A stretch of 64,000 nucleotides of DNA from positions 992,001 through 1,056,000 of the forward strand of contig JAJYUT010000001.1 in the NCBI GenBank assembly GCA_021792365.1, given 5' to 3'. Below the pieces are notes generated by a model, which saw only the letters and a program-made list of their open reading frames with translations, did no database searches and was not told where the DNA came from. Each line of letters starts with the position of its first letter. Positions within the stretch are counted from its first letter, which is position 1. Position numbers and translations under genes: made by a program. The DNA comes from Pseudomonadota bacterium (GTDB taxonomy: Bacteria; Pseudomonadota; Alphaproteobacteria; Dongiales; Dongiaceae). Of the stretch, positions 2,846-8,600 are shown piece by piece.

Positions 2846-4084
2846 ATGAATGCTCCTGCCGCTCCCGTCACCGCCGCGCCGGCTACTGGTGCACCCCAGG
2901 GCGGCGCAGGCTCGGCCGCGCTGATGAACACCTACGCCCGCTCGGAGCTAACCTTTGAGCGCGGGGAGGGGGCTTGGCTCTACGCAGTCGACGGGCGGCG
3001 CTTCCTCGATTTCGCGAGCGGGATCGCGGTCACGGCGCTCGGACATTGCCATCCGCATCTCGTCAAGGCGCTGACGGAGCAGGCGAACCGCGTCTGGCAC
3101 ACCTCCAACCTCTACCGCGTGCCGGGGCAGGAGAAGCTGGCGGAGCGGCTGGTGGCCGCGTCCTTCGCGGGCGCGACCGGCGGGCAAGTGTTCTTCGGCA
3201 ATTCCGGCGTCGAGGCGATCGAGTGCGGCCTCAAGCTGGTGCGCAAGTATCACGACGATTTCGGCGATGCCGGGCGCTACCGCGTCATCGCCTGCGAAGG
3301 CTCGTTCCACGGCCGCACGCTGGCCGGCCTCGCGGCGGCGGGCAATGAGAAATATCTCAAGGGCTACGCGCCCTATGTCGATGGCTTCGACCACGTGCCC
3401 TACGGCAACCTCAACGAGCTGCGCGCCAAGATCGGGCCCGAGACTGCCGCGATCCTCGTCGAGCCGGTGCAGGGCGAAGGCGGCATGCGCGCCGCCCAGG
3501 TCGAGTATCTGAAGGGCCTGCGCGCGGTGTGCGACGAGTTCGGCCTTCTGCTCTTCTTCGACGAGGTGCAATGCGGCATGGGCCGCACCGGCAAGCTGTT
3601 CGCCCACGAATGGGCCGGCATCACGCCGGATATCGTGGCAACGGCCAAGGGCATCGGCGGCGGCTTCCCGCTCGGCGCGTGCCTCGCGACGGGCAAGGTC
3701 GCGGCTGCTTTCAGTCATGGCAGCCACGGCACCACCTTCGGCGGCAACCCGCTCGCCATGGCGGTGGGCAACGCCGTGCTGGACGTGATCCTCGCGCCGG
3801 GCTTCCTGCCCGCGGTGGCGAGAAAGGGCGAGCGCCTTGCAAAAGGCGTGGCGCAGCTCGTCGACAAGCACCAGGGCGTGTTCGCGGATTTCCGGGGCAA
3901 GGGGCTGATGCTCGGCCTCAAATGCGCGGGGTCGAACATCGAGATGGTCGAACGTCTCCGACGATGCGGTCTGCTGACGGTGGGCGCCGGCGAGAATGTC
4001 GTGCGGCTGCTCCCGCCCTTGATCGTCACCGATGCGGAAATCGACCAGGCCCTCGACATGATCGACCGGGCCGCCCAGGCGTGA
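2846..4084 (+). CDS. argD: Acetylornithine aminotransferase
   Basis: Class III PLP-dependent aminotransferase, 412 residues, converting N-acetylglutamate semialdehyde to N-acetylornithine in cytoplasmic arginine synthesis. Typical landmarks are DFASGIAVTALGHCHP near the start, the GNSGVEAIE segment, FDEVQCGMGRTGKLFA, and the PLP-binding Lys268 in TAKGIGGGFPLG. GAGGGG just upstream supports ATG 2846. This gives an Ala/Pro-rich 26-residue leader before the conserved domain, so Met27 (2924) is the alternative start. argF follows about 95 bp downstream in the same direction, which supports ArgD over the related succinylornithine or GABA aminotransferases. Confidence 0.93.
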   Translation: MNAPAAPVTAAPATGAPQGGAGSAALMNTYARSELTFERGEGAWLYAVDGRRFLDFASGIAVTALGHCHPHLVKALTEQANRVWHTSNLYRVPGQEKLAERLVAASFAGATGGQVFFGNSGVEAIECGLKLVRKYHDDFGDAGRYRVIACEGSFHGRTLAGLAAAGNEKYLKGYAPYVDGFDHVPYGNLNELRAKIGPETAAILVEPVQGEGGMRAAQVEYLKGLRAVCDEFGLLLFFDEVQCGMGRTGKLFAHEWAGITPDIVATAKGIGGGFPLGACLATGKVAAAFSHGSHGTTFGGNPLAMAVGNAVLDVILAPGFLPAVARKGERLAKGVAQLVDKHQGVFADFRGKGLMLGLKCAGSNIEMVERLRRCGLLTVGAGENVVRLLPPLIVTDAEIDQALDMIDRAAQA

Positions 4085-4178: not shown

Positions 4179-5120
4179 ATGCCTGACGCCAACAGATCGC
4201 TGAAACCCAACCTCCGGCACTTCCTCGACCTAGACCGGCTCTCCAAGAAAGACCTGCGCAAGATCATCGACGTCTCGCGCCAGTTGAAGGCCGGCACCCA
4301 TCCCTTCGCCACCTCGAAGCCGCTCGACCGCAAATCGCTGGCGATGATCTTCGAGAAGCCTTCGACCCGCACCCGCGTCTCGTTCGAACTCGGCATGAAG
4401 CGGCTCGGCGGCGATACCGTGGTGCTGGAGCGCGAATCCTCGCAGCTCGGCCGCGGCGAGACGGTGGCGGACACCGCGCGCGTGCTCTCGCGCTACGTCG
4501 ATTGCATCATGGTGCGCACCACCCGGGAGCAGAAGCTGCTGGAGCTGGCGGAATATTCCGCGGTGCCCGTCATCAACGGCCTCACCGACCGCACCCATCC
4601 CTGCCAGCTCATGGCCGACGTGATGACCTTCGAGGAGCATCAAGGGCCCATCCGGGGCAAGCGCATCACCTGGTCCGGCGACGGCAACAACATGGCGACG
4701 TCGTGGATCCATGCGGCGGCGATGTTCGACTTCGAGCTCAACGTTTCCTGCCCGGAGATGCTGATGCCGCCGCAGGACGTGGTGGCCTGGGCGCAGGGCC
4801 GCGGCGCGAAGGTGCGGATCGTCACGGACCCAGCCGCCGCGGTGGCGGGGTCCGATTGCGTGGTGACCGACACCTGGGTCTCGATGGGCGATGCGGACAC
4901 CTCCGACCGCCACAACATGCTGCGCGCCTTCCAGGTCGACGACCGGCTGATGGCGGCGGCGAATCCGGGCGCCGTATTCATGCATTGCCTGCCCGCCCAT
5001 CGCGGGGAGGAGATGACGGCGAGCGTGATCGACGGCCCGCAATCGGTGGTGTGGGACGAGGCCGAGAACCGCCTTCACGCCCAGCAGGGCATCCTGCTCT
5101 GGTGCCTCGGTTTGATTTGA
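4179..5120 (+). CDS. argF: Ornithine carbamoyltransferase
   Basis: This 313-residue cytoplasmic enzyme transfers the carbamoyl group from carbamoyl phosphate to ornithine, giving citrulline. The carbamoyl-phosphate loop S-T-R-T-R is at residues 62-66. The HPCQ motif follows in the middle, and the ornithine-side HCLPAHRGEE motif lies at residues 269-278. Length is standard. It follows argD directly and precedes hslO, an order common in alphaproteobacteria. Full-length and intact. Confidence 0.96.
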   Translation: MPDANRSLKPNLRHFLDLDRLSKKDLRKIIDVSRQLKAGTHPFATSKPLDRKSLAMIFEKPSTRTRVSFELGMKRLGGDTVVLERESSQLGRGETVADTARVLSRYVDCIMVRTTREQKLLELAEYSAVPVINGLTDRTHPCQLMADVMTFEEHQGPIRGKRITWSGDGNNMATSWIHAAAMFDFELNVSCPEMLMPPQDVVAWAQGRGAKVRIVTDPAAAVAGSDCVVTDTWVSMGDADTSDRHNMLRAFQVDDRLMAAANPGAVFMHCLPAHRGEEMTASVIDGPQSVVWDEAENRLHAQQGILLWCLGLI

Positions 5121-5202: not shown

Positions 5203-6174
5203 GTGCGCGATGCCAGCAATACGGACCGAGATTCAGATCACATGCGCACAGGATTGCCGGCGGGCGAGCAACGCGACTTCATCCAGCCATTCTCCATCGA
5301 GGGGCACGGCGTGCGCGGGCGCCTGGTGCGGCTCTCGCACGTGGCGGACCGCATCATCAAGCAGCACGCCTATCCCGACAGCATCGCGCGCCTGCTGGCT
5401 GAGATGATGGCGCTGACGGCGGTGCTTGCCGCCGCGCTCAAATACGAGGGCGTCTTCACCCTGCAGACCAAGGGCGACGGGCCGGTGAAGTTGATGGTGG
5501 TGGACCTCACCAGCCAGGGCGCTATGCGCGGCTATGCCCAGTTCGATGCCGCGCAGGTGGCGGCGATCGCGGCAGAGAGTCCCGGCGAGCACGCCTCGCT
5601 GCCACGCCTCCACGGCAAGGGTTATCTCGCCTTCACCGTGGACCAGGGCCAGCACACCGACCGCTACCAGGGGATCGTGGAGCTGGAGGGCGCGACGCTC
5701 AGCGAGTGCGTGCATCACTATTTCCGCCAGTCGGAGCAGTTGCAGGCCGGCTTCAAGATCGCGGCGGCGCGCGACGCGGAGGGCTGGCGCGCCGGCGCCA
5801 TCATGCTCCAGCGCATGCCGCAGGAGGATGCGAGCGAAATGGCCGAGGAGGTCGCGGAGGATGCCTGGCGCCGCGCCTTCATCCTGATGGCGAGCTGCAC
5901 CGACCGCGAGCTGCTGGACGTGGACATGCCGGCGACGGACGTGCTCTACCGCCTGTTCCATGAGGACGGCGTCCGCGCCTTCAAGGCGCAGGGCGTGGAG
6001 GCGAAATGCCGCTGCTCGCGCGAGCGGGTGGAGACCGTCCTGAAGGCGATGGCGCCGGAGGAGCTGGCGGAGCTGCAGATCGACGGCACGCTCGCCGTCA
6101 CCTGCGAGTTCTGCAACGGCCGCTACGATTTCCCGCTGGCCGATTTCCTGCCGGCGCGCACTGAGCGCGCTTGA
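5203..6174 (+). CDS. hslO: Hsp33 redox-regulated chaperonin
   Basis: A 323-residue cytoplasmic holdase chaperone activated by oxidation. The C-terminal zinc switch is present: C269-R-C271, then C301-E-F-C304, the C-X-C...C-X2-C arrangement of the family. The N-terminal domain has the expected pattern (HVADRIIKQHAYPDS, FTLQTKGDGPV). The start is taken as GTG 5203, preceded by AAGGAGG around 5185; the alternative ATG at 5242 would remove 13 non-conserved residues. It lies 80 bp after argF in the same direction. Confidence 0.93.
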   Translation: MRDASNTDRDSDHMRTGLPAGEQRDFIQPFSIEGHGVRGRLVRLSHVADRIIKQHAYPDSIARLLAEMMALTAVLAAALKYEGVFTLQTKGDGPVKLMVVDLTSQGAMRGYAQFDAAQVAAIAAESPGEHASLPRLHGKGYLAFTVDQGQHTDRYQGIVELEGATLSECVHHYFRQSEQLQAGFKIAAARDAEGWRAGAIMLQRMPQEDASEMAEEVAEDAWRRAFILMASCTDRELLDVDMPATDVLYRLFHEDGVRAFKAQGVEAKCRCSRERVETVLKAMAPEELAELQIDGTLAVTCEFCNGRYDFPLADFLPARTERA

Positions 6175-7009: not shown

Positions 7010-7969
7010 TCAGGCGTAGCGCGCCGCAGGGAAGGCCAGCCCCATCCGCCTCTGCCGCAGTGCGCAGAGTTCCAGTCGTGCATCGGGCGAGCGCACCAGG
7101 CCGCGCGCGAGGCTGTTCACCAGGTCCCGTGCGACCGTGCCGGTCTTGTCCAGGGGCGGCTCGAAAATCGTGATGTGGATGCCGATGGCGCGGCCGCTGC
7201 GCATGGCGACGCCGAGGATCGTCTCGAGCTCTTCCCAGGACAGGCCGTCCGGCATGCGATAGGCGACGGCCGGCATGATCGCATCGTCCAGCACGTCGAC
7301 ATCGAGATGGATCCAGAAGCCGTCGAGATCGGGGCGGCAGAGATGCGCGACCGCCGCGCGCGCGGCTTCGCCGGCGCCGACGCGGCGCACCTCCTCAAGA
7401 TCCTGCGCGAAGATCGTGGGCGGCAGGGGTTGGCTGCCGTATTCGCGCGCCTGCGCGGCGTCACGATGGCCGAGCACGGCGACATCGGCGTCGCGGACCA
7501 GCGGGCGCATCCCTTCGAGGTCGGTGAGAATCGCAGGCCCGCGGCCGGTGCCGAGCGCCAGGTCCATGTCCGCGGCCTCGCCGGTGGGCGAGGCTTCCGG
7601 CTGATAGAAATCCGCGTGGCCGTCGAGGAACAGCAATCCATGGCGTCGGCCCGTGCGCCGCAGCGCCAGCAGGTTGCCGAGCAGGATCGAGCAATCGCCG
7701 CCCAGCACCACCGGAAACGAGCCGCGCGCCAGCACAGGGCCGACGATATCCGCCAGCATGATGGAGAAATCGCGGATGCGGGCCGCGTTCAGGATGTTGG
7801 TGCCGGGATCGCGGTGCGCTTCGTAGGGCGGCACCGCCAGCCGCGCATGGCGGCGCGCCTCGAGGCGTTGCGCAAGGCCGGCATCGAGCAGCGCATCGGG
7901 CAGGTGTTCGACACCGCCGGGCTTGAGGCCGAGGTGAGAGGGGGCTTCGATAATCGTGAAGTCCGGCAT
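7010..7969 (-). CDS. Arginase/agmatinase-family ureohydrolase
   Basis: A 319-residue member of the binuclear-manganese ureohydrolase fold (arginase, agmatinase, formimidoylglutamase). Metal-binding motifs are in order: GGDCS (90-94, where many members have GGDHS), DGHADF (116-121) and HLDVDVLD (221-228). The His-to-Cys change in the first motif and the divergent C-terminus mean the substrate cannot be assigned; arginase-type rocF is possible. ATG 7969 is preceded by AGGAGG on the minus strand. The gene is divergent from a MarR regulator with a palindrome between them, suggesting control by that regulator. Confidence 0.85.
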   Translation of the reverse strand: MPDFTIIEAPSHLGLKPGGVEHLPDALLDAGLAQRLEARRHARLAVPPYEAHRDPGTNILNAARIRDFSIMLADIVGPVLARGSFPVVLGGDCSILLGNLLALRRTGRRHGLLFLDGHADFYQPEASPTGEAADMDLALGTGRGPAILTDLEGMRPLVRDADVAVLGHRDAAQAREYGSQPLPPTIFAQDLEEVRRVGAGEAARAAVAHLCRPDLDGFWIHLDVDVLDDAIMPAVAYRMPDGLSWEELETILGVAMRSGRAIGIHITIFEPPLDKTGTVARDLVNSLARGLVRSPDARLELCALRQRRMGLAFPAARYA

Positions 7970-8017
7970 GATTGCCTCCTTCATGGATAAAGCTTTACTT
8001 TTTCGGCCCTCCGCATT

Positions 8018-8038
8018 ATATGTATGCAGTCTACATAT
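8018..8038. promoter_or_regulatory. Probable MarR operator palindrome
   Basis: ATATGTA (8018-8024) and TACATAT (8032-8038) are perfect 7-bp inverted arms with a 7-bp spacer, in the A/T-rich gap between the arginase-family gene and the MarR gene. The size and symmetry fit a MarR-dimer site. That this regulator binds it is an inference from position. Confidence 0.6.
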
Positions 8039-8066
8039 TATGTCAAGGCGAATCGATGGGGCTGGC

Positions 8067-8600
8067 ATGACGGAAGACAAGGCGCTGCAGGAAGGGAGAG
8101 TTCGCGGCCATGCGGCCAATGTTCTCGGCGCGCTCTCATTGCTGATACAGGACCGCGTCGAAAGCGCCTGGCAAGGGGAGCTCGACCTTTCGCCCATGGC
8201 CGCGGCCGCCCTTGTCCAGATCGACAACGACCCGGGCTCCTCGATCGAGCTCATCGCCAGCCATATTGGCCTCACGCATTCGGCAACCGTGCGCCTCATC
8301 GACAAGCTGGCCGAGCGGGGCCTGGTGGAGAAGGACCGCGCCCGCAAGGACGCCCGTGCCCAGAGCCTGACGCTGAGCAGGGCCGGCAAGCGCGTCGCGC
8401 AGCAGCTCCACGCTTTGCGCAATCGGGTCATAGACGGGCTCCTGGGCGGTCTCGATCAGGGCCAGCGCGAAGGGCTCGAGGAGGCGATCCGCGCCATCCT
8501 GCACCGCTGCGTCGAGCCGGGGCGTGAGGCCGATGTCACCTGCCGGGTGTGCGATGACCGCCGCTGCACCCCCGACATCTGCCCGATCCGGGTCGCGTAG
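8067..8600 (+). CDS. MarR-family regulator with a C-terminal four-Cys tail
   Basis: A 177-residue winged-helix transcription factor. The helix-turn-helix core (IELIASHIGLTHSATVRLID) and the basic wing (KDRARKDARAQSLTLS) are typical. The C-terminus carries C-X2-C-X4-C-X4-C in its last 20 residues (CRVCDDRRCTPDIC), unlike classical MarR, suggesting a metal site, iron-sulfur ligand or thiol switch. ATG 8067 is preferred; in-frame ATG 8040 lies in the operator region. It is divergent from the arginase-family gene, its likely target. Confidence 0.88.
   Translation: MTEDKALQEGRVRGHAANVLGALSLLIQDRVESAWQGELDLSPMAAAALVQIDNDPGSSIELIASHIGLTHSATVRLIDKLAERGLVEKDRARKDARAQSLTLSRAGKRVAQQLHALRNRVIDGLLGGLDQGQREGLEEAIRAILHRCVEPGREADVTCRVCDDRRCTPDICPIRVA

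Follow-up and report, generated by a model that had tools for sequence, protein, structure and literature searches.

What does a MarR-type regulator with a cysteine-rich tail control when its gene lies back to back with that of an arginase-like enzyme carrying an altered metal motif, and does the short sequence between the two genes tie them together? The question arises from a window of 64,000 nucleotides (the whole stretch of DNA that was analyzed) of a bacterium related to Dongia, in whose genome such a switch protein is paired with an arginase-like enzyme twice, in two different arrangements. The divergent pair of the window has the following features:

7010-7969, minus strand: P0001, an arginase-fold protein (319 aa) in which Cys93 replaces the first His of the metal ligands
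8067-8600, plus strand: P0002, a MarR-family regulator of 177 aa
8541-8585, plus strand: four-Cys tail of P0002, C-X2-C-X4-C-X4-C-P (Cys159, Cys162, Cys167 and Cys172), a likely metal site

The start codon of P0001 (ATG at 7969) has AAGGAGG just before it; a 473-aa frame proposed for this gene in the list of open reading frames was rejected as an upstream extension running across the neighboring gene. P0002 has an alternative in-frame ATG at 8040, which would give nine extra residues. The spacer between the two genes is 97 bp. Second from the pair is a gene for an Hsp33-like (hslO-like) protein (5203-6174, plus strand) with CXC and CXXC motifs near its end, Hsp33 being a redox-regulated chaperone; before it come an argD-like (2846-4084) and an argF-like gene (4179-5120), all three named by eye.

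The PF00491 score of P0001 (87.1 bits, cut-off 22) places it in the arginase family, and its structural model (pLDDT 93.7) supports with good confidence an arginase-like fold, the best solved match being the arginase 2cev (TM 0.82/0.88). The metal motifs read GGDCS, in place of the usual GGDHS, DGHADFY and DVDVLDD. The preliminary description had noted the Cys for His in the first motif, correctly, and the replacement turned out to be clade-wide: the His was absent and Cys present in 60/60 aligned proteins, as well as in all 69 loci with a match across the motif (70 rows, of which L055 does not reach it). The aligned set comprised P0001, 50 of 64 sufficiently long clade loci and 9 of 10 enzymes of the operon type described below; it did not include L120 (motif GGCCS), L052 (early stop) or short matches. 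Among the other metal ligands, D116, D120, D223 and D225 were found in all 60 proteins and H118 in 57. P0001 itself keeps five of the six, and its predicted metal site is present with a Cys at one ligand position. Two members of the clade, L038 and L043, replace the motif II His with Asn (DGNADFF) or Gln (DGQADFF), and their metal sites are possibly altered or inactive.

The residues that would handle the substrate told a different story from the fold. Arginases bind the guanidinium group through a Glu that we take to be E277 of the rat enzyme, and N139 and H141 are presumably substrate residues as well, the latter as the His of the proton relay. Profile alignments with three solved arginase chains, of which two from Thermus are nearly identical, were free of gaps in the Glu region and set EVNP opposite the TIYNP of the clade. 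At the Glu position the 60 aligned proteins had Ile (45), Cys (9) or Val (6), and none had an acid. Further, the arginase stretch SPSGNIHGM reads SPTGEAADM in P0001, which puts Glu at the N139 position and Ala at that of H141. The guanidinium Glu was retained in L122, in two further Cys-type arginase-fold proteins of the bacterial family (L128 and L129) and in three high-scoring PF00491 proteins of the host genome (L173, L174 and L175) that, unlike P0001, keep both GGDH and EV.P. L129 (positions 1489-2421 of its locus, genome G248) combines a motif I Cys with DFDTD where DAHAD is expected; it thus lacks the motif II His too, yet has the Glu. The absence of the guanidinium Glu and the proton-relay His from the clade makes the label "ureohydrolase" of the preliminary description doubtful, and suggests that P0001 probably acts on a substrate other than arginine, and perhaps on no guanidino compound at all. 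Instead of an unusual ureohydrolase, P0001 should be called an arginase-fold hydrolase with its substrate unassigned.

These residues also bear on a conventional explanation of the locus, in which an ordinary ligand-responsive MarR protein would control a true ureohydrolase whose guanidino substrate doubles as the inducer. Membership of PF00491, arginases as the nearest solved structures and five of six metal ligands would all fit this explanation, as would the nearby argD- and argF-like genes, whose order with the hslO-like gene is maintained in two related species (L003 and L004); as a hint to the substrate, however, such arginine-biosynthesis neighbors are weak. We regard it as unlikely, given that an acid at the Glu position is missing from the whole aligned set while L173-L175, L128 and L129 keep it, that the N139 and H141 positions are changed in P0001, and that the protein scored 95.9 bits with the arginase equivalog model TIGR01229, well below the cut-off of 227.6.

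The motif I Cys also fits the conventional explanation, being compatible with arginase activity. The available excerpt of the report on zmARG, the arginase of Zymomonas mobilis (PDB 6ksy), describes a GGDCL motif with Cys for the first metal-ligand His, a crystal structure with two zinc ions of which the first is five-coordinate, and an active arginase in the presence of Mn, with a Km of 6.8 mM and a kcat of 302 per s (PMC6988801). The same Cys is visible in a sequence alignment. What the preliminary description took to be the unusual feature is thus already known from an active enzyme. zmARG has the arginase fold and the motif I Cys in common with P0001, along with a two-metal site of its own according to that excerpt, which makes no mention of a linked MarR gene (PMC6988801). 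The two are nevertheless distant: 6ksy was not found at E 0.001, and only a 67-residue piece matched, at E 0.05. A closer match (E 1.3e-9) was the arginase-fold protein DcsB (PDB 6lug), an N(omega)-hydroxy-L-arginine amidinohydrolase. DcsB acts on a guanidino substrate in the D-cycloserine pathway, and we take it to have a Cys in place of the first His as well. The best fold and sequence matches of P0001, the arginases of Bacillus caldovelox (1cev/2cev) and Thermus (2ef4), have the motif I His, the guanidinium Glu and the proton-relay His, whereas P0001 has none of them. As far as alignments can tell, it is the missing guanidino-recognition residues, and not the already known Cys, that set the clade of P0001 apart.

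The clade without the guanidinium Glu is spread over Pseudomonadota, Actinomycetota, Nitrososphaerota, Methanosarcina, Nostoc, Gemmatimonadota and other groups. Its conserved neighbors were considered as a clue to the substrate and rejected, as even the largest cluster of neighboring genes extended over just 5 of the loci L003-L070. Such a wide range of taxa without a recurring neighbor suggests wide horizontal spread. Nor was a P0002-like gene detected in the flanks (up to 4 kb) of 65 of 68 enzyme loci, or within about 1.5 kb of L112-L115, four P0001 relatives that come from other genera of the same family, so the enzyme exists elsewhere without this regulator. In the flank search, tblastn with P0002 matched only L001-L005, and matches to the tail pattern in unrelated frames were discarded by eye.

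Is the regulator then linked to the enzyme in the window at all? MarR proteins usually have a palindromic operator laid over a promoter. The spacer contains these elements:

8015-8038, minus strand: conserved operator block, ATATGTAGACTGCATACATATAAT on the enzyme strand, which holds the 7-bp palindrome (8018-8038)
8015-8020, minus strand: TATAAT, probable -10 box of the enzyme gene, at the end of the operator in 4/4 species
8041-8046, minus strand: TTGACA, possible -35 box of the enzyme gene

The inverted repeat consists of ATATGTA (8018-8024) and TACATAT (8032-8038) with 7 nt between them, and extends to 11-nt arms (8014-8024 and 8032-8042) with one mismatch. When the 97-bp spacer was dinucleotide-shuffled 2000 times, 7.4% of the shuffles had exact arms of at least 7 bp and 0.75% had 11-nt arms with one mismatch; taken by themselves, the exact 7-bp arms do not decide against chance. 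Conservation was more telling. The block ATATG(T/C)AGACTGCATACATATAAT had 23 of its 24 columns identical in the four species of the genus amid a spacer that had otherwise drifted, which argues that the palindrome is more than chance, and it was the only long conserved intergenic block in the four window-type spacers. A chance palindrome was ruled out on these grounds, even though 7-bp arms alone would fit one. The perfect 7-bp palindrome of the preliminary description was therefore real and lies inside a conserved operator, but its exact arms were kept in only two of the four species; the other two (ATATGCA) have TATGCAG-A-CTGCATA, a perfect 15-bp palindrome. With this site, P0002 has the conserved palindrome-like sequence beside its own gene that is a trait of the MarR family. 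Use of the -35 box is uncertain, because its spacing to TATAAT (20 nt) is poor, and a consensus promoter scan called no promoter at the TTGACA/TATAAT site. The overlap of the operator with the -10 box, in the only long conserved block, makes repression the best explanation.

Additional evidence came from the second pair. When the host's own genome was searched with P0001, one more match at E <=0.01 was returned (31% identity; G000:C21, locus L002), an enzyme with GGCCT as motif I. In this locus the enzyme gene is followed by a MarR gene with the four-Cys tail in one operon, with a four-base overlap, whereas the window pair is divergent. The site before the second pair has 15 of 16 bases in common with the window operator over its first half. 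Across 17 genomes of the family, 16 MarR proteins matched at E < 1e-30, and 14 of these adjoin an arginase-fold gene (in loci of about 1.5 kb on each side). Four pairs are of the window type and come from all four genomes of the window's genus; the ten of the operon type are divided between that genus (four) and a second one (six). Loci L003/L004/L005 and L109/L110/L111 apparently belong to the same genomes, having the same identities, and are not independent.

The operator was present in all 14 pairs. In nine of the ten operon-type loci it fills the gap between the two promoter boxes, a -35 of the TTG type and a -10 resembling TATAAT, the position expected of a steric repressor; the boxes are 17 nt apart in seven loci and, by choice of box, 17 or 19 nt apart in two. 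The L002 operon is without a TTG-type -35 box. The shared pattern gave two zero-mismatch sites in the host genome, one per pair, and two sites with 3 mismatches, while the reversed control gave none. Because the pattern was derived from the pair sites, matches there are expected and the informative part is the absence of other sites. A regulon beyond the two pairs was considered and rejected, the two 3-mismatch sites lying inside long reading frames and being taken as chance. That every pair found in the family has the operator, and that the host genome contains another pair whose operator is closely similar, bears out the earlier proposal that regulator, palindrome and enzyme form one control unit, and comparison across genomes indicates that the window pair is part of a recurrent regulatory unit. 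The same two results make it very improbable that P0001 and P0002 are unrelated neighbors flanking a fortuitous palindrome, an interpretation that can draw on the frequency of 7-bp arms in shuffled spacers and on the enzyme's relatives, most of which have no such neighbor, with no other gene recurring in more than 5 of L003-L070.

Phylogenetic placement of the enzymes suggests that the unit was assembled more than once. A tree of the 60 aligned enzymes and nine other arginase-fold proteins of the family, built by a quick method without bootstrap, nested the window-type enzymes in a 51-row clade from many phyla (SH-aLRT 97) and left the nine operon-type enzymes outside it (SH-aLRT 100). A single duplication of the whole pair was rejected, since the tree, at the support of 97, places the operon type outside the window-type clade, and two separate pairings are favored. 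Operon-type enzymes were matched in 4 of 289 genomes of the class (E 1e-20), all four inside the family and none outside it. In the MarR tree, a joint 14-row clade of both MarR groups was not rejected (p-AU 0.2). The same kind of regulator with a closely similar operator would so have been linked to two arginase-fold clades, or the link would have been lost many times.

What could the regulator sense? P0002 is a winged-helix protein of the MarR type by its PF12802 score (43.2 bits against a cut-off of 27). Its model (pLDDT 88.3) had 2rdp as best structural match (Z 15.4, rmsd 2.5 over 140 residues) and matched solved MarR proteins mainly over residues 6-152; for 5e1z and 5e1w (RdhR-CbdbA1625) the aligned range reached model residue 170, a range that gives end points only. 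P0002 has the winged-helix fold in common with the family of SlyA, MexR, MepR and FabT, whereas the four-Cys tail is its own. The C-X2-C-X4-C-X4-C spacing had been read correctly at the outset, and comparison with other proteins gave the consensus C-R-x-C-x4-C-x4(or x2)-C-P. The four Cys and the Pro were invariant in 16 aligned members, rows that had been picked for having the tail; those other than the window-type orthologues are 30 to 38% identical to P0002. Less biased counts, for which the queries still included the tail, were 16/16 in the family, 14/17 in the class and 7/14 in the phylum. No solved MarR protein aligned over the tail among the best 60 rows of each of two sequence searches, and within these rows the tail is without structural precedent. 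In the tail there is most likely a single metal site (Zn or Fe-S), located behind the last helices. With the model for zinc-dependent MarR proteins of the AdcR type (NF038251), P0002 scored 17.1 bits, below the cut-off of 175.

A metal site in this position invites comparison with known sensors. SoxR, a DNA-binding regulator of the MerR family, has a Cys cluster near its C-terminus in a layout comparable to that of the P0002 tail. The accessible part of the report on ArnR describes a winged-helix regulator reminiscent of MarR and ArsR proteins that contains Fe-S, with three Cys far apart (179, 193 and 223), in contrast to the four of P0002, all in the tail (PMC12343034). Both belong to families other than that of P0002 and differ from it in Cys spacing, and a cluster in P0002 is only putative. 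No paper on this pair or on such a Cys-tailed MarR protein was found among the matches listed in a search of open-licence literature.

As the preliminary description suggested, P0002 could be a redox or metal switch: the tail would bind Fe-S or Zn, loss or oxidation of the site would free the operator, and the thiolate-ligated enzyme would be produced only in a certain metal or redox state. The Fe-S precedent of ArnR, as far as the accessible part of that report goes, makes a redox reading possible (PMC12343034). The tail itself behaves as a ligand set might, its Cys and Pro being fixed and the gap between the last two Cys changing (X4 or X2) among rows picked for the tail; one signal could suit both the tail and a Cys-ligated enzyme, and two separate enzyme clades with the motif I Cys are linked to such regulators. 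We nonetheless consider this switch rather doubtful as an account of the locus, as a structural Zn site would have the same look in sequence, the tail also occurs on MarR proteins beside unrelated enzymes, solved MarR structures offered no counterpart in the searches described above, and most loci of the Cys-type enzyme (65 of 68, in flanks of up to 4 kb) showed no such regulator.

Local repression by P0002 is, by comparison, very likely on the evidence of the operator; the reading that we prefer, and judge to be reasonably probable, adds to this a tail that binds metal and a substrate outside the guanidino compounds. According to this preferred reading, P0002 would act as a local MarR-type repressor, a dimer of which would bind the operator at 8015-8038, cover the -10 box and shut off the enzyme gene; it would probably curb its own transcription too. 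Release could come from a small molecule tied to the substrate of the enzyme or from a change at the four-Cys tail, where the metal site may be structural or a sensor. The enzyme would be a metallohydrolase of the arginase fold whose first metal has a thiolate ligand. The locus offers a handle on two unknowns, a widespread arginase-fold clade without the guanidino-binding residue and the four-Cys-tailed subfamily of MarR proteins; the inducer of the regulator would point to the substrate of the enzyme.

Cys-tailed MarR proteins also occur away from arginase-fold enzymes. In the class, the three matches to the operon-type MarR without the tail were the weakest of the 17. In the phylum, matches were found in 39 of 398 drawn genomes; among the 14 loci examined of the 30 returned, the tail was present in the 7 strongest and absent from the 7 weaker, and none of these 14 had an arginase-fold neighbor. 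By eye, the neighbors of other Cys-tailed MarR genes encode alpha/beta hydrolases of the dehalogenase kind, a short-chain dehydrogenase and a hydrolase of the metallo-beta-lactamase fold. An operator matrix was built from the 14 pair sites, on which matches are expected (L111 and L118 were taken on the opposite strand, and the window-type register is slightly off that of the operon type). Applied to 12 unpaired loci, among which L075, L077, L078 and L079 are close relatives, its best score exceeded all 60 shuffles in 10, clearly so in 8 and narrowly in L076 and L085, while L080 and L107 did not beat theirs. These matches suggest that the Cys-tailed MarR group shares an operator type whatever it controls, which makes the subfamily traceable in genomes.

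A broader proposal would be that the Cys-tailed MarR proteins form a metal- or Fe-S-sensing family with an operator code near ATATGYRYGC-N-GCRYRCATAT, which in the Dongia-like family has twice captured arginase-fold enzymes with a thiolate-ligated metal and a non-guanidino substrate. If true, one redox or metal signal would govern both a sensor and a matching enzyme; as it stands, we hold the proposal to be speculative and improbable.

Two Cys-tailed MarR proteins of the family, L098 (G243) and L107 (G246), were without an arginase-fold neighbor within about 1.5 kb; L098 has the operator by the matrix, and L107 is without it. A variant palindrome near TATGTGYGC-N-GCRCACATA was seen upstream of L076 and L080 and, in looser form, of L081 and L085, and the latter two are divergent to a dehalogenase-like alpha/beta hydrolase, as judged by eye.
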